A stretch of DNA of 64,000 bases. Source: Clostridiales bacterium. GTDB taxonomy: Bacteria; Bacillota; Clostridia; Peptostreptococcales; Acidaminobacteraceae. This document shows, one piece after another, positions 4,994 through 13,130 of the stretch (its first letter is position 1; each line of letters opens with the position of its first letter). Below the pieces are notes generated by a model. That model had not been told where the DNA came from. It searched no databases and was given only the letters and a program-made list of their open reading frames with translations. Made by a program: the position numbers and the translations under genes. The stretch spans positions 1-64,000 of the forward strand of contig JASUSA010000004.1 in assembly GCA_030446305.1 (NCBI GenBank), written 5' to 3'.

Positions 4994-5110
4994 CAATTTG
5001 CAACAACTGTCCGTATAGTGGTAAACGCATTAACAATTGAATGACATCATTTTCTCATGTATAAAAATTTTTTTATAATGTTACAAATCTGTTACAACCG
5101 AAAATAATGG

Positions 5111-5139
5111 TTGCGCGCATTTGCAAAATCGGATAGAAT
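5111..5139 (+). promoter_or_regulatory. Putative promoter of the ABC exporter leader
   Basis: TTGCGC (5111-5116), a 17-base spacer and TAGAAT (5134-5139) give a plausible sigma-A-type promoter with transcription starting near 5146, about 40 bases before the leader peptide start codon. The -35 box is only partly consensus. Confidence 0.5.
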
Positions 5140-5187
5140 TTATGTGAACGTGAGACATCGCGTTACAAAACGAAGGAGGTTATAAAG

Positions 5188-5325
5188 ATGATTAAGTTAA
5201 ACTTTGCTTTTACACAATGTAATACATCCGTGGATCATGGCATTTACGCAATCAGTGCGTCCAAAATGCGTCAACCGCGTCAACTTAATCTCGATACATT
5301 TATAACCTGCGGGTATAGGCATTGA
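5188..5325 (+). CDS. 45-residue leader peptide upstream of the ABC exporter
   Basis: A 45-codon ORF starts with ATG at 5188 behind a very strong AAGGAGG ribosome site and stops at 5323-5325, 18 bases before an intrinsic terminator. The peptide begins MIKLNFAFTQCNTSVDHG and ends ITCGYRH; it has no signal sequence or membrane segment. Its start and end regions are the complementary arms of the attenuator described in the adjoining entry, and two ABC exporter genes follow. The most likely role is a cis-acting leader whose translation status is sensed, as with BmrB of B. subtilis, rather than a functional peptide. No sequence similarity to BmrB is claimed. Confidence 0.75.
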   Translation: MIKLNFAFTQCNTSVDHGIYAISASKMRQPRQLNLDTFITCGYRH

Positions 5326-5341
5326 TTAACAACGAATGTTT

Positions 5342-5371
5342 AGCCACAGGTTAATCACCTGTGGTTTTTTT
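5342..5371 (+). terminator. Intrinsic terminator after the leader peptide (attenuator)
   Basis: CCACAGGT (5344-5351) pairs perfectly with ACCTGTGG (5357-5364) around a five-base loop and is followed by seven T residues. It stops transcription before the exporter genes unless its left arm is captured by the antiterminator pairing. Confidence 0.9.
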
Positions 5372-5407
5372 ATACCTTAAATTTGATGTCGACTCAAATC
5401 GGCATAG

Positions 5408-5438
5408 AGAGGCCACGGGTGAAGGGGTCTCTTTTTTT
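5408..5438 (+). terminator. Second intrinsic-terminator-like hairpin before the ABC exporter
   Basis: AGAGGCC (5408-5414) pairs with GGTCTCT (5426-5432, one G-U) over an 11-base loop, followed by a run of Ts to 5438. A second terminator in series tightens control of the exporter. From here to 5610 no gene is seen, only a small CGCAT/ATGCG hairpin near 5560. Confidence 0.7.
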
Positions 5439-5619
5439 ATGTCAACATAACGATTTCTACACAAAGCATTTGTAGCGTGATCACCTGCAAGCACATAAAG
5501 TAAAAATCGGGAAGTGTATTAAAATCAACGTAAATCAACACTGAAAACGAACAATACGCATTTGATGCGCCAAGGCAATGCATCAATGCTAACAGGTAAA
5601 CATACAGGAGGTGACAGGC

Positions 5620-7362
5620 TTGAAAAACATCATCAAATTCATGGATGGGTATAAATTCATGTTCATTACAGCAATTTTAGCCATTGTTATCGCAACACTT
5701 ATGCAACTGGCAACACCCATAATCATTAAATACGCCGTCGATACGGTTATTGGTCATGAAGATCCGGGAAATCTGGCATTTTTTCAGCGCTGGTTTGGTG
5801 CAACGATCTCAGGTGTCGTTCTGGCATTTATTATAACGAACTTAATTCGAGGTATTTTTCTCTTTGTTAAAGGCTATTTTTCAAATGTTGCCGCGGAGGC
5901 AATTGCAAAACGCATGCGAGATGCACTTTATGAACACATTCAGTACATGCCGTTTGCATATCATACGGGACGTGAAACTGGGGACCTCATACAGCGCTGC
6001 ACATCTGATGTAGAAACGGTCAGACGCTTTTTAGGTGTACAGGTTGCCGATCTCGGTAGGATCATTTTCATGGTTGTACTTTCCGTTGCGGTGATGTTTT
6101 CACTTAGTGCGAAATTGACCCTTTACGCGGTCGTCTTGGTACCGGTTCTCTTTCTTTTTTCGTATCTCTTTTTTATCAAAGTTCAGCAGAATTTTACGAA
6201 ATCAGATGAGGCCGAAGGCAGGTTGACAACTGTCTTGCAGGAAAATCTGTCTGGGGTACGCGTTGTACGCGCTTTTGGGCGTGAGCGCTATGAAATTGAT
6301 AAATTTGAAACGGTTAACCGTGAATACCGCGATACGACTTTTAAACTCATCGAACTCTTGGGCGTCTTTTGGTCATCATCTGAAATCATAGCGTTGATTC
6401 AGAGCGGTATCGTGCTAATCGTCGGGTCGCAGATGGTCATGAGGGATGAAGTGACACTCGGGACGCTTATCGCCTTTATCACATATGAGTCGATGCTGCT
6501 CTTGCCCGTAAAACAATCCGGCAGACTGCTCAGCGAACTAGGCAAAATGACAGTTGCCTCAAAGCGAATTGAAGAAGTGCTCAGTGAGCCTGTTGAAGAA
6601 GAAGAAAAGGATGCGTTAAAACCAGCTATTAAAGGGGATATTCGCTTTGAAAATGTTTCGTTTGCCTATGAAGACGGCAAAGATGTCCTCAAGGGTTTAA
6701 ACTTTGAAGTAAAGGCAGGGCAAACACTGGGCATCCTCGGTGCGACGGGCTCCGGCAAATCGACATTGGTGCAGCTGCTGCAAAGGCTTTATGACTACAG
6801 TGGTGAAATCTATATTGACGATACGCCGCTTTCAAAGATCGATCGACACTGGATTAGAAAGCACATCGGTCTTGTTATTCAGGAACCGTATCTCTATGCA
6901 AAAAATGTTAAAGAAAACATTGGGATTACTGATCCATCTTATTCCTTTGACGCCATACGGAACGCAGCAGAACGTGCGGCGATCCATGAGAGCATCGAGG
7001 GATTCAAAGATGGCTATGAAACGGTTATTGGGGAAAAGGGCGTCTCACTTTCAGGAGGACAAAAACAGCGTATCGCCATATCCAGAACCATTATTGACGA
7101 TGCGAAACCGATATTAGTCTTTGACGATTCGCTAAGTGCTGTCGATACGGAAACGGATCAAAAAATTAGGCAGGCTCTGGCTGCCAGAAAGACGGCTGCA
7201 ACGACGATCATGATCAGTCACCGCCTGACGACACTGGCAAAAGCCGACGTGATCATTGTACTCGACGAAGGTGAAATTCTGCAGATGGGAACACATGAAG
7301 CCCTGATTGCTGAAGATGGCATGTACAAACACATCTGGGAGCTCCAGCGCGCGATCGCATAG
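5620..7362 (+). CDS. ABC multidrug exporter half-transporter, subunit 1 (BmrC/LmrC-like, degenerate Walker B)
   Basis: This is a 580-residue export-type half transporter: six membrane helices in the first ~310 residues, then a nucleotide-binding domain with Walker A GATGSGKST (nt 6739-6765), Q-loop IQEP, signature LSGGQ, Walker B ending VFDDSLSAVD and H-loop ISHR. The catalytic glutamate after Walker B is Asp (DD instead of DE), as in BmrC and other degenerate-site partners of heterodimeric exporters. The start is probably TTG at 5620, eight bases after AGGAGG; the earlier in-frame GTG at 5611 overlaps that ribosome site. It is preceded by the leader attenuator and followed by the partner subunit. 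The substrates are likely hydrophobic drugs but cannot be read from the sequence. Confidence 0.92.
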   Translation: MKNIIKFMDGYKFMFITAILAIVIATLMQLATPIIIKYAVDTVIGHEDPGNLAFFQRWFGATISGVVLAFIITNLIRGIFLFVKGYFSNVAAEAIAKRMRDALYEHIQYMPFAYHTGRETGDLIQRCTSDVETVRRFLGVQVADLGRIIFMVVLSVAVMFSLSAKLTLYAVVLVPVLFLFSYLFFIKVQQNFTKSDEAEGRLTTVLQENLSGVRVVRAFGRERYEIDKFETVNREYRDTTFKLIELLGVFWSSSEIIALIQSGIVLIVGSQMVMRDEVTLGTLIAFITYESMLLLPVKQSGRLLSELGKMTVASKRIEEVLSEPVEEEEKDALKPAIKGDIRFENVSFAYEDGKDVLKGLNFEVKAGQTLGILGATGSGKSTLVQLLQRLYDYSGEIYIDDTPLSKIDRHWIRKHIGLVIQEPYLYAKNVKENIGITDPSYSFDAIRNAAERAAIHESIEGFKDGYETVIGEKGVSLSGGQKQRIAISRTIIDDAKPILVFDDSLSAVDTETDQKIRQALAARKTAATTIMISHRLTTLAKADVIIVLDEGEILQMGTHEALIAEDGMYKHIWELQRAIA

Positions 7363-7522
7363 GGATGTGAGCACAACAGCAGCGTACAGCTTCTTCAGAT
7401 GTAAAAAAGCAAAGCGTTTGCATGAAAAGGTACAAAGTGATTTTTTCAGGTAAAGAGATTGCTTAAGAAAACTTCGAGCTTAGCATAGCAATGAAATTTG
7501 ATAAAACAAGGAGGTGTTGACC

Positions 7523-9358
7523 ATGGTAAAACAAGAGAAGACACAACTGAAATATGATAAAACCATCTGGAAGACACTGTTTCAATATTTTAAAACAATG
7601 AAGCGCGACTTTGTGATACTGGCGTGCTTTATGATGGCACTGGCGGCAATGGACATTATTTTCCCGCTGGTGACACAATACACCATTGACAACATCATTT
7701 TAAAAAACTGGTCAGAGGGACTCACCATCGTTGGGATCGTCTATGCCGTTTTAGCCGTTTTATTAACGGCAATTGTCTATTTTTTCATTCGGCATGCCGG
7801 GAAAATTGAAATGGGCATGGTCTACAAAATGCGCAAGGATAGTTTTGAAAAGCTTCAAAAGCTTTCTTTTAGCTATTACGATCAGAATGCTGTGGGCTGG
7901 ATGATTTCCAGAACGACCTCAGATGCCGCCAAGATTTCTGAAACAGTGGCATGGGGGCTTGTTGACCTCATATGGGGGTTGACCATGATGGCGGGGATCG
8001 CTATTGTCATGCTGATTGTCAATGTAAAACTGGCGCTTGTGACCTTGGTGACCATTCCATTACTGGCGCTTGTGAGTATCGCTTTTGAAAAAAAGATGCT
8101 CATTGCCTATCGACATGTGAGGCGAATCAATTCCAAAATTACGGGATTGTTTAATGACGGCATTGCGGGGGCGAAGACGACAAAAACACTGGTGAGAGAA
8201 TCGCTGAATTGTGGTGAGTTTGAAACAGTTACCGGTGAGATGCGCATGGAATCCGTCCGTGCGGCGACATTTTCATCGGGGTACTTACCGGTGGCGCTCT
8301 TTATCTCAGCCATTGGCACGGTATTGACGCTTTATTTTGGGAGCAGCGAGGTATTAAACGGGGGCATTACTTATGGAACACTGGTGCTTTTCGTTACATA
8401 CGCGCGACAATTCTTTGATCCGGTATTGGAACTGGCGAGAATTTACACTGAAATGATCAGTGCGCAAGCTGCGGCAGAACGTGTGATGCAGTTGATCCAC
8501 GAGCCTGAAACGGTAAGCGATCAGCCGGATGTCATTCAGAAATACGGTGACCACTACCATCAAAAACGTGAGGCTTGGGAAACACTTCATGGTCATATGA
8601 CGTTTGAAAACGTAGGCTTTAATTACAAACCCGGCGAAAGTATTTTAGAGGATTTCAATTTGGAAGTTAAGCAGGGTGAGACCATTGCACTGGTAGGTGA
8701 AACGGGTTCCGGCAAGAGTACCATTGTCAATCTGGCATGCCGATTTTATGAACCGACATCCGGTGTCATCAAAATTGACGGTGTCGACTATCGGAAACGT
8801 TCACAGAGCTGGCTGCATGCCAATATTGGGTATGTGCTCCAGACGCCGCACCTTTTTAGTGGTACGGTAATGGCCAACATACGCTACGGGCGTTTAGACG
8901 CTTCAGAAGAAGACGTGATGGCAGCGGCAAAGATGGTCAATGCCCATGACTTTATCATCAAAATGGAACATGGTTACCATTCACAAGTAGGAGAAGGCGG
9001 CGCCAGACTCTCTACAGGTGAGAAACAGCTCATTTCATTTGCCAGAGCGATTTTGGCAGATCCAAAAATATTTTTCTTGGACGAGGCAACTTCTTCTATT
9101 GATACAGAAACAGAAGCCAAAATTCAAGAAGCAGTTGAAAAAGTCCTTGAAAACAGGACAAGCTTTATTATCGCACATCGGCTTTCAACGATTCGGCAAG
9201 CGGACCGCATACTCGTCATAGACAAGGGGCGTATTGTCGAATCTGGCAATCATGCGACATTGATGCAGAAACGCGGTGCTTATTATCACCTTTACGCCAA
9301 TCAGTATGGTGAGGCACTGGTTAACGAGAAGAAGAAACATAAGCTGCGGAGCGCCTAG
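7523..9358 (+). CDS. ABC multidrug exporter half-transporter, subunit 2 (BmrD/LmrD-like)
   Basis: This 611-residue half transporter is the partner of the preceding gene. Six membrane helices are followed by a nucleotide-binding domain with Walker A GETGSGKST, canonical Walker B ending FLDEATSSID and H-loop IAHR, but a non-canonical signature, LSTGE instead of LSGGQ. Together with the Asp in the first subunit this predicts one degenerate and one active ATP site, as in known heterodimeric exporters. An insertion of about 25 residues precedes the ATPase domain (around QKYGDHYHQKREAWETLHG), typical of this subunit type. ATG 7523 lies eight bases after AAGGAGG; the GTG at 7514 overlaps that site. 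It is 160 bases downstream of subunit 1 with no terminator between them. Confidence 0.92.
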   Translation: MVKQEKTQLKYDKTIWKTLFQYFKTMKRDFVILACFMMALAAMDIIFPLVTQYTIDNIILKNWSEGLTIVGIVYAVLAVLLTAIVYFFIRHAGKIEMGMVYKMRKDSFEKLQKLSFSYYDQNAVGWMISRTTSDAAKISETVAWGLVDLIWGLTMMAGIAIVMLIVNVKLALVTLVTIPLLALVSIAFEKKMLIAYRHVRRINSKITGLFNDGIAGAKTTKTLVRESLNCGEFETVTGEMRMESVRAATFSSGYLPVALFISAIGTVLTLYFGSSEVLNGGITYGTLVLFVTYARQFFDPVLELARIYTEMISAQAAAERVMQLIHEPETVSDQPDVIQKYGDHYHQKREAWETLHGHMTFENVGFNYKPGESILEDFNLEVKQGETIALVGETGSGKSTIVNLACRFYEPTSGVIKIDGVDYRKRSQSWLHANIGYVLQTPHLFSGTVMANIRYGRLDASEEDVMAAAKMVNAHDFIIKMEHGYHSQVGEGGARLSTGEKQLISFARAILADPKIFFLDEATSSIDTETEAKIQEAVEKVLENRTSFIIAHRLSTIRQADRILVIDKGRIVESGNHATLMQKRGAYYHLYANQYGEALVNEKKKHKLRSA

Positions 9359-11470: not shown

Positions 11471-11512
11471 CACTATTAGCAATTAAGTCTCTGACTTTAC
11501 AAATGCATACTG

Positions 11513-11641
11513 TTATCAAGAGTGGCTGAGAGAATAGGCTCTATGACGCCCGGCAACCTGCATATGCGTGGTGCCAATTCCTACATTTCGATGAAATGAG
11601 AGATAAACGGATCCGGTCGCTTTCATTGAAGCGGCTTTTTT
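11513..11641 (+). promoter_or_regulatory. SAM-I (S-box) riboswitch upstream of lysC
   Basis: The S-box core is plain: AGAGTGGCTGAGAGA, GGCTCTATGA, CCCGGCAACC, then GTGGTGCCAATTCC and a closing helix. P1 is formed by TTATC (11513-11517) and GATAA (11602-11606). A terminator follows: GTCGCTT (11616-11622) pairs with AAGCGGC (11629-11635), then six Ts. High S-adenosylmethionine should favour the aptamer and the terminator, shutting off aspartokinase. The remaining bases to 11722 hold only the lysC ribosome site. Confidence 0.95.
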
Positions 11642-11722: not shown

Positions 11723-12931
11723 ATGGCCATTATTGTTCAAAAATACGGTGGCACGTCAATGGCGGATGCTGACTGTATCAAAAATGTGGCGCAGAAAGTC
11801 CTTCGGGCTAAAAACGCCGGCAAGAAAGTTGTCGTCGTCGTTTCTGCACCAGCGGGGATGACGGATGACCTCATAAGGCGGGCAAAGCAGGTAACCGAGA
11901 AACCAACGGGAAGAGAACTGGATATGATTCTCTCGACGGGTGAACAGATATCAATATCGCTTTTGGCAATGGCCATTCAAAATATGGGAGAAGAAGCCAT
12001 CTCTTTTACAAGTGCTCAAGTAGGCATTTTAACAGATGGCGTTCACAACAAGGCTAAAATAGAAGCCATTAATACATCAAAAATATTAGCGGAACTCGAA
12101 CGCAATAAAGTGGTCGTGATTGCAGGCTTTCAAGGCGTCACAAAGGATCTTGAAATTACGACACTGGGTCGAGGCGGTTCAGATACATCAGCTGTTGCAC
12201 TCGGTGTGGCACTTGAGGCGGAAGAGGTGGAAATCTATACAGATGTCGACGGTATTTATACAGCCGATCCGCGCATTGTCCCAAATGCACGAAAAATTGA
12301 CAGCATTTCTTTTGATGAAATGCTCGAGATGGCCGGTGCCGGAGCAAAAGTGCTGCACCTTCGAAGTGTCGAACTCGCAGCGAAGAACAATTTGCCGATA
12401 CACTTGAGATCATCGTTTACAGACACGATGGGGACTTATGTCGTAGGGGAGGATACATCCATGGAAAAAGTATTTGTCAGAGGTGTTGCACACACCACAA
12501 ACAATGCTAAAATTACCATTGCCAATTTAAAACATACTTCAAAAAATGTCGCATATCTCTTTCATGAAATTGCTGAACAGCATATTAACGTCGACGTCAT
12601 CACGCAAAACTATTTAACGAAAGACGATGTGACGATATCCTTCACTGTGACGGAAGAAGACTTCGATCGCGCGCTGGCGCTGACAAAGACATTGGCCGAA
12701 GCGATCGGCGCAGAATCAGTGACAGGAGAACTCGGCGTTGCAAAAGTATGTGTCATCGGTGTGGGGATGAAGAGTACGCCGGGCGTTGCCGCAAGGGTTT
12801 TTGAATGCTTGGCAAACAATGACATTGAGATTGATTTGATTTCAACATCTGACATTAATATTACCTGCGTCATCAACCAATCGGACTATTCAAAAGCAGT
12901 ACTTGCAATTCATAATGAATTTGACTTATAA
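11723..12931 (+). CDS. lysC: Aspartate kinase (aspartokinase)
   Basis: Catalyses ATP-dependent phosphorylation of L-aspartate, the first step toward methionine, threonine and lysine. The 402-residue protein starts with the conserved KYGGTS motif (residues 7-12), has the amino-acid kinase domain with the TLGRGGSDTSA segment (about 150-160), and two C-terminal ACT domains (about 265-402) for allosteric amino-acid binding. Length is typical for monofunctional aspartokinase II. An AAGGCGG ribosome site precedes ATG 11723. Its SAM-I riboswitch and position before metF and metH indicate that this isozyme mainly supplies methionine biosynthesis. Confidence 0.96.
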   Translation: MAIIVQKYGGTSMADADCIKNVAQKVLRAKNAGKKVVVVVSAPAGMTDDLIRRAKQVTEKPTGRELDMILSTGEQISISLLAMAIQNMGEEAISFTSAQVGILTDGVHNKAKIEAINTSKILAELERNKVVVIAGFQGVTKDLEITTLGRGGSDTSAVALGVALEAEEVEIYTDVDGIYTADPRIVPNARKIDSISFDEMLEMAGAGAKVLHLRSVELAAKNNLPIHLRSSFTDTMGTYVVGEDTSMEKVFVRGVAHTTNNAKITIANLKHTSKNVAYLFHEIAEQHINVDVITQNYLTKDDVTISFTVTEEDFDRALALTKTLAEAIGAESVTGELGVAKVCVIGVGMKSTPGVAARVFECLANNDIEIDLISTSDINITCVINQSDYSKAVLAIHNEFDL

Positions 12932-12979
12932 TAATCATTAAATCAAGGCGATTATTAATCGCAGACAATTATATACCGA

Positions 12980-13130
12980 CTTATTAAGAGTGGCTGAGAG
13001 ACTGGCTCTATGAAGCCCGGCAACCTACATCTCATTTGATGTGTGGTGCTAATTCCTGCATTTCCTATGAAATGAAAGATAAGATTTTGAGAGAGATCGT
13101 TTCATGCAATAGGTGGAGCGATTTTTATTT
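12980..13130 (+). promoter_or_regulatory. SAM-I (S-box) riboswitch upstream of metF
   Basis: A second S-box has the same core (AGAGTGGCTGAGAGA, GGCTCTATGAAGCCCGGCAA, GTGGTGCTAATTCC). P1 is CTTAT (12980-12984) with ATAAG (13079-13083). The terminator stem is ATCGTTTCA (13097-13105) against TGGAGCGAT (13115-13123) with two or three G-U pairs, followed by a T-rich run. It should switch off metF and the following methionine synthase genes when SAM is abundant. It differs enough from the lysC copy not to be a recent duplication. Confidence 0.95.

Follow-up and report, generated by a model that had tools for sequence, protein, structure and literature searches.

A probable ribosome-mediated attenuator with a Shine-Dalgarno sensor arm and linked tandem terminators ahead of an ABC exporter pair in a Fusibacter relative

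The leader of a pair of ABC exporter genes in a relative of Fusibacter probably encodes a ribosome-mediated transcription attenuator, in which the Shine-Dalgarno (SD) sequence of a leader ORF serves as the anti-antiterminator arm and two tandem terminators are coupled. The leader lies in a 64,000-nucleotide stretch of DNA (the window); the closest named relative, by the first exporter protein, is Fusibacter paucivorans DSM 12116 (95% identity), followed by a Clostridiales MAG and F. tunisiensis. The elements of the leader form mutually exclusive pairings, are conserved and covary among relatives, and masking of the ribosome site changes the predicted fold. Such a decoy-ORF switch would probably turn the exporter on when ribosomes slow. 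The kind of switch is already known, and what is new here is the leader SD as sensor arm together with two linked terminators, conserved in many relatives.

The leader ORF and the genes downstream of it are arranged as follows.

5111..5139 (+), probable promoter: TTGCGC at 5111-5116, a 17 nt spacer and TAGAAT at 5134-5139
5188..5325 (+), leader ORF of 45 codons with an ATG start, MIKLNFAFTQCNTSVDHGIYAISASKMRQPRQLNLDTFITCGYRH, present in all orthologues
5620..7362 (+), ABC exporter half 1, beginning with TTG 5620 or GTG 5611; signature LSGGQ and a Walker B of VFDD, in which Asp replaces Glu
7523..9358 (+), ABC exporter half 2: ATG start at 7523, or GTG at 7514; signature LSTGE, Walker B FLDE

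The promoter-like element (TTGC...TA) is kept in the orthologues at a similar distance, and the putative transcript start is near 5146. The 45-codon ORF with a strong ribosome site, the starting point of the original prediction, is indeed present, with the SD AAGGAGG upstream of its ATG. Both downstream genes encode ABCB-type half-transporters. The replacement of the catalytic Glu by Asp in half 1 and the degenerate signature of half 2 (LSTGE) make up what we take to be the heterodimeric exporter pattern, as in TM287/288 and BmrCD, and by their sequences the two half-transporters, with one degenerate catalytic site, probably form a heterodimeric ABC multidrug exporter. Among bacterial heterodimers, the PDB matches were TM_0288, the exporter of entries 5mkk/6raf (presumably TmrAB) and YheI/YheH (BmrC/BmrD). 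The pair had been expected to be of BmrC/BmrD type; the heterodimeric exporter stands, as does the placing of a leader-ORF attenuator before it, but the specific assignment does not, since the TM287/288 type and 5mkk/6raf match as well or better and BmrC/BmrD is not the closest.

Six features of the leader provide the arms of the proposed switch.

5177..5186 (+), arm A, AGGTTATAAA, overlapping the leader SD region and complementary to arm B at 10/10 positions
5299..5312 (+), arm B, TTTATAACCTGCGG, codons 38-42 of the leader ORF, partner of A or C
5343..5371 (+), terminator 1, with arms C (5344-5353) and D (5355-5364) and a U-tract (5365-5371)
5355..5373 (+), arm D with the U-tract, pairing over 19 bp with arm E in the minimum-energy fold
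5404..5422 (+), arm E, ATAGAGAGGCCACGGGTGA, partner of D (19 bp) or F
5407..5438 (+), terminator 2, with its left arm inside E, its right arm F at 5424-5432 and a U-tract to 5438

Two exact complements had been proposed from the sequence and both were confirmed: ten bases between the ribosome site and the ORF end (A, 5177-5186, AGGTTATAAA, with B, 5299-5308, TTTATAACCT), and seven bases between the ORF end and the left arm of the terminator (the B:C core, 5303-5309 TAACCTG with 5347-5353 CAGGTTA). Terminator 1 begins 17 nt past the leader stop codon, and its hairpin (5343-5365) has a predicted energy of -13.7 kcal/mol; the second terminator, also foreseen, has an imperfect stem (5407-5433, -11.1 kcal/mol). 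The complete three-way switch of the original prediction gives way to a chain of five helices in the folding models, A:B/B:C/C:D/D:E/E:F, in which each inner arm has two partners; the helix between 5355-5373 and 5404-5422, 19 bp long, had been missed. The minimum-energy structure of the whole leader combines B:C with this helix and is not the terminated form.

The first exporter protein was searched in 41 genomes of the family; its orthologues there share 63-66% identity with it, and a set of more distant homologues 45-49%. All 13 family orthologous loci with readable upstream sequence (window included) have a strong SD, an ORF of 38-60 codons and two terminators, the second terminator being present in 13/13; the leader of the nearest genome is 96% identical over 311 bases. 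The combination of leader ORF and two terminators also occurs in six loci whose exporters are the more distant homologues. Extending the search to 297 genomes of the order added loci from other families; eleven of these, drawn from three families, were examined, and in each a leader ORF precedes two terminators, with sequences that differ considerably. Three loci (L023, L030 and L031) have no clear second terminator or leader and were excluded from the two-terminator counts. In total, an ORF with a ribosome site upstream of an intrinsic terminator is conserved in 30 loci. The core of arm B lies in frame 0 in 13/13 orthologues, although its codon number varies between 32 and 48, and this conservation of frame despite variation in ORF length argues for translation of the leader ORF.

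The conserved frame of B, together with conservation of the ORF and SD, also bears on whether the region might be a riboswitch-like element, that is, an attenuator that senses a ligand or protein independently of leader translation. The whole region does fold very stably (5146-5445, -88.6 kcal/mol, z = -5.0, with 0/200 shuffles as low), as such an element would. However, no conserved aptamer-like core was seen outside the ORF, and the leader has no match among Rfam families at gathering score, where the only matches of the window are two SAM riboswitches elsewhere, so that a riboswitch-like element seems very improbable. The Rfam matches are these.

11510-11609, SAM riboswitch (S-box), preceding an aspartokinase-like gene at 11723
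12978-13085, SAM riboswitch (S-box)

The preferred reading, a ribosome-mediated attenuator, would operate as follows. The leader ORF would be translated from its strong SD, and a ribosome reaching the end of the ORF would cover B, leaving C to pair with D as terminator 1; with D engaged in C:D, E would be available to F, and terminator 2 would then reinforce terminator 1, keeping the exporter off. Without a loaded ribosome, A would capture B ahead of the synthesis of C, again with both terminators as the outcome. Where a ribosome stays on the SD and the opening codons, as an inhibitor acting at initiation or early in elongation could cause it to do, A would be covered and B exposed; the exposed B would pair with C as the antiterminator, D would be freed for E, and both terminators would be disabled, turning the exporter on. 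By analogy with known leaders, ribosome-targeting drugs may be the inducers.

These states were modelled by barring the bases of a ribosome footprint from pairing and folding the RNA at the point when C has emerged and D has not; equilibrium folding at the finished terminators is uninformative, because there the terminators nearly always win. With a ribosome on codons 1-8, the predicted probability of B:C was near 1.0 for every footprint and transcript start tested (about 0.93-1.0 on codon 1), with a ribosome in the middle of the ORF it was mostly 0.5-1.0, in competition with A:B, and from about codon 36-37 onward it was 0. For the whole leader, a ribosome on the start codon gave predicted values of 0.97-0.98 for B:C and 0.98 for D:E, whereas on codon 40 the values were 0 for B:C, 0.96-0.98 for C:D and 0.94-0.95 for E:F. 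The contrast between start-masked and B-masked folds recurs in the models of about 27/30 loci. Thus, the antiterminator is predicted to be mutually exclusive with terminator 1 and to depend on ribosome position, and the fold check proposed at the outset, with and without a ribosome mask, gives the expected antiterminator when the ribosome site is masked.

The order of synthesis appears to matter for both states, as in other attenuators. In the models, A:B is already fully formed (0.98-0.99) by the time C is synthesized, in keeping with a leader that is off by default in the absence of a loaded ribosome. When the RNA ends at the U-tract of terminator 1, the equilibrium is predicted to lie with terminator 1 (0.96), and placing a ribosome on the start codon does not change this; since terminator 1 beats B:C at equilibrium once D is out, antitermination must be kinetic, and we infer that control at terminator 1 is kinetic rather than equilibrium. 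Without a ribosome, the modelled A:B/B:C balance depends on transcript start and end, and moves from 0.83/0.15 to 0.31/0.67 upon small changes of the transcript ends, which qualifies a reading in terms of SD occupancy. It had been proposed that the leader senses by occupancy of its own SD; masking the SD does switch the predicted fold to the antiterminator, but the SD seems to be only one input.

In a related scheme, SD pairing would only brake leader translation, and the switch would be set solely by whether a ribosome reaches B, in the trp manner, with stalling anywhere upstream being sufficient. This agrees with the prediction of B:C at 0.5-1.0 for nearly every ribosome position at codons 1-35 and at 0 from about codon 36-37, with or without competition from A:B. 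Nevertheless it seems unlikely, as A:B is kept by compensatory changes, is the strongest pairing in several relatives (about -20 kcal/mol in L020 and L013) and in many relatives abolishes the predicted B:C unless the SD is masked.

Covariation of the arms among relatives had been set beforehand as the test that could refute the attenuator, and A:B, B:C and D:E all covary; the arms were aligned by hand, the D:E columns were hand-picked, and related sequences inflate the counts that follow. Over nine A:B pairs in 14 distinct leaders, 92.9% of cells are paired, compared with no more than 42% when the arms are slid by one to three columns, and five of the nine pairs have changes on both sides (e.g. 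A-U to G-C, U-A to C-G). For B:C the corresponding values are 89.8% and at most 46%, with two doubly changed pairs and one position that is often a C.A mismatch. Both pairings beat codon-shuffled ORFs in most loci. In the window alone, the energy of A:B is not beyond chance by this comparison (p = 0.11) and that of B:C is (p = 0.017); A:B reaches p < 0.05 in 10/13 family orthologues and is weak (p 0.3-0.58) in at least 3/7 loci of family f2. The 10-base match of the window is therefore more than chance because it is conserved and covaries in relatives. The leaders of f2 (L043-L049) carry a near-fixed CATCTTT(A/G)C-like stretch at their end, and terminator 1 of several of these loci has GTAAGG, with arm C as a mimic of arm A; the solution reached there thus differs in sequence.

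For D:E, 88.4% of cells are paired over 23 distinct loci, with 39 double-change cells versus 13 in shuffles, and the two arms covary across four families. These figures have to be weighed against an ordinary, uncoupled double terminator, in which D:E would merely follow from the likeness of terminator 2 to terminator 1. When only loops and flanks are shuffled, D:E is equally strong in most relatives, as the similarity of the terminators already implies, and in L014, L020 and L029 it is no better than chance, so that an uncoupled pair is a real possibility, to which we give rather less than even weight. What speaks for coupling, apart from the covariation in four families, is the window itself, where D:E has 19 consecutive pairs, exceeds both C:D and E:F and draws on bases of the loop and the U-tract (p = 0.002); the duplex is predicted at -26.9 kcal/mol, against a mean of -8.0 for the other terminators of the window (rank 0/21). 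D:E clearly exceeds the level of terminator similarity in L028, L051, the window and the relative nearest to it, and does so to a lesser degree in L018. Coupling of the terminators by D:E is thus well supported at this locus and moderately so as a general rule, and D:E may contribute to read-through by the mechanism set out above.

The overall helix logic also resembles that of an amino-acid-sensing leader of the trp/his type. In the present case, though, the peptide has no run of one amino acid that could serve as regulatory codons, the peptides differ between relatives, and the downstream genes encode exporters and not biosynthetic enzymes, which leaves this explanation with a barely appreciable probability. 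The leader peptides (5248-5265 and relatives) share a stretch [I/T]SA[S/P], whose codons ATC AGT GCG are nearly fixed and of which L018 has two copies. This stretch may act as an arrest motif or carry a signal at the nucleotide level. A hairpin in the middle of the ORF around these codons was considered and dropped, as RNAalifold gave no consensus structure. Codons 26-28 (5263-5271) encode KMR, a +x+ pattern that resembles macrolide arrest motifs; as a signal it was rejected, since it is not conserved among relatives.

Among known systems, the closest that has been described is the bmrB leader of bmrCD in Bacillus subtilis, which is induced by ribosome-targeting antibiotics; it is similar in that a leader ORF of translated type precedes a heterodimeric ABC exporter, with predicted terminator, antiterminator and anti-antiterminator; induction by lincomycin was shown to act through translation of the ORF and the terminator (PMC4191407). 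The bmrB ORF contains all three of these structures (nt 60-162), and the study did not settle what the anti-antiterminator does (PMC4191407). The leader described here differs in that its terminator and alternative structures are not confined to the ORF: one arm is the SD of the leader itself, terminator 1 comes only after the stop codon, and there is a second terminator, probably coupled to it. The same logic as proposed here, in which the anti-antiterminator is broken by a ribosome that has stalled at the beginning of a uORF or close to it, so that the antiterminator prevents termination, is known for vmlR of B. subtilis (PMC9226507) and lmo0919/Rli53 of Listeria (PMC8079631). Their uORF, however, has three codons rather than 45, the SD of vmlR is single-stranded before the anti-antiterminator hairpin whereas here its partner is the distal end of the ORF, and the downstream gene encodes an ABC-F factor rather than an ABCB-type exporter pair. 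Listeria hflXr/rli80 likewise has a short ORF overlapping the anti-antiterminator, with antibiotic-dependent antitermination, but the ORF has 14 codons and an RLR motif and the gene is different (PMC6310831). For the fthC motif, a uORF has been proposed to sense the rate of initiation (PMC11109978).

Two further systems may be compared. Bacillus erm(K), as described where it is cited in PMC4335068, has a leader ORF and two adjacent intrinsic terminators, as here; the downstream gene is a methylase instead of an exporter pair. Streptococcus pneumoniae patAB shares a predicted terminator, antiterminator and anti-antiterminator before a heterodimeric ABC exporter, but differs in having one terminator and fluoroquinolone induction, and the passages covered make no mention of a leader peptide (PMC4319486). 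The portion of the open-licence literature covered, as text without figures, contains no description of a leader SD acting as an anti-antiterminator arm whose partner lies at the distal end of the ORF, nor of a D:E-type link between tandem terminators.

Tentatively, and with slightly more doubt than confidence, we suggest that these leaders represent a widespread, undescribed class of attenuator in this clostridial order that controls ABC exporter pairs, with the leader SD as a sensor arm reading stalling at initiation or early elongation and five mutually exclusive helices coupling the two terminators, both of which a single ribosome event would then open or close. If so, environmental anaerobes would possess a compact, conserved sensor of ribosome inhibition with a simple rule, namely who occupies the leader SD, and the coupled terminators might give a tight off-state while inducibility is kept. 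Antibiotic-responsive attenuators of ABC exporters would then extend well beyond Bacillus and Listeria, and induction of exporter pairs across the order could be explained without a drug-binding regulator.

Two other observations concern additional control of the exporter. In L012, the exporter SD (AGGAGGTTGTAA) repeats the leader SD, so arm B could sequester the exporter SD too, and a translational control layer is possible in that genome. The second is a direct repeat upstream of the promoter.

5081..5096 (+), direct repeat TTACA-N6-TTACA with an 11-bp period, a possible regulator site

The repeat lies about 30 bp upstream of the -35 element and is found in the same place in 12/13 family orthologues, and also at several other loci; the loci that have it besides the window are L010-L015, L017, L019-L022, L024, L025, L027, L029, L053 and L054. 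The chance of such a repeat is about 0.2% per 260 nt. A genome search for the upstream repeat adjoining TTGC gave 3 matches versus 3 in the control, and no regulon is therefore claimed. The 11-bp period fits a response regulator of OmpR/PhoB type, and thus the exporter may have a second, promoter-level input.
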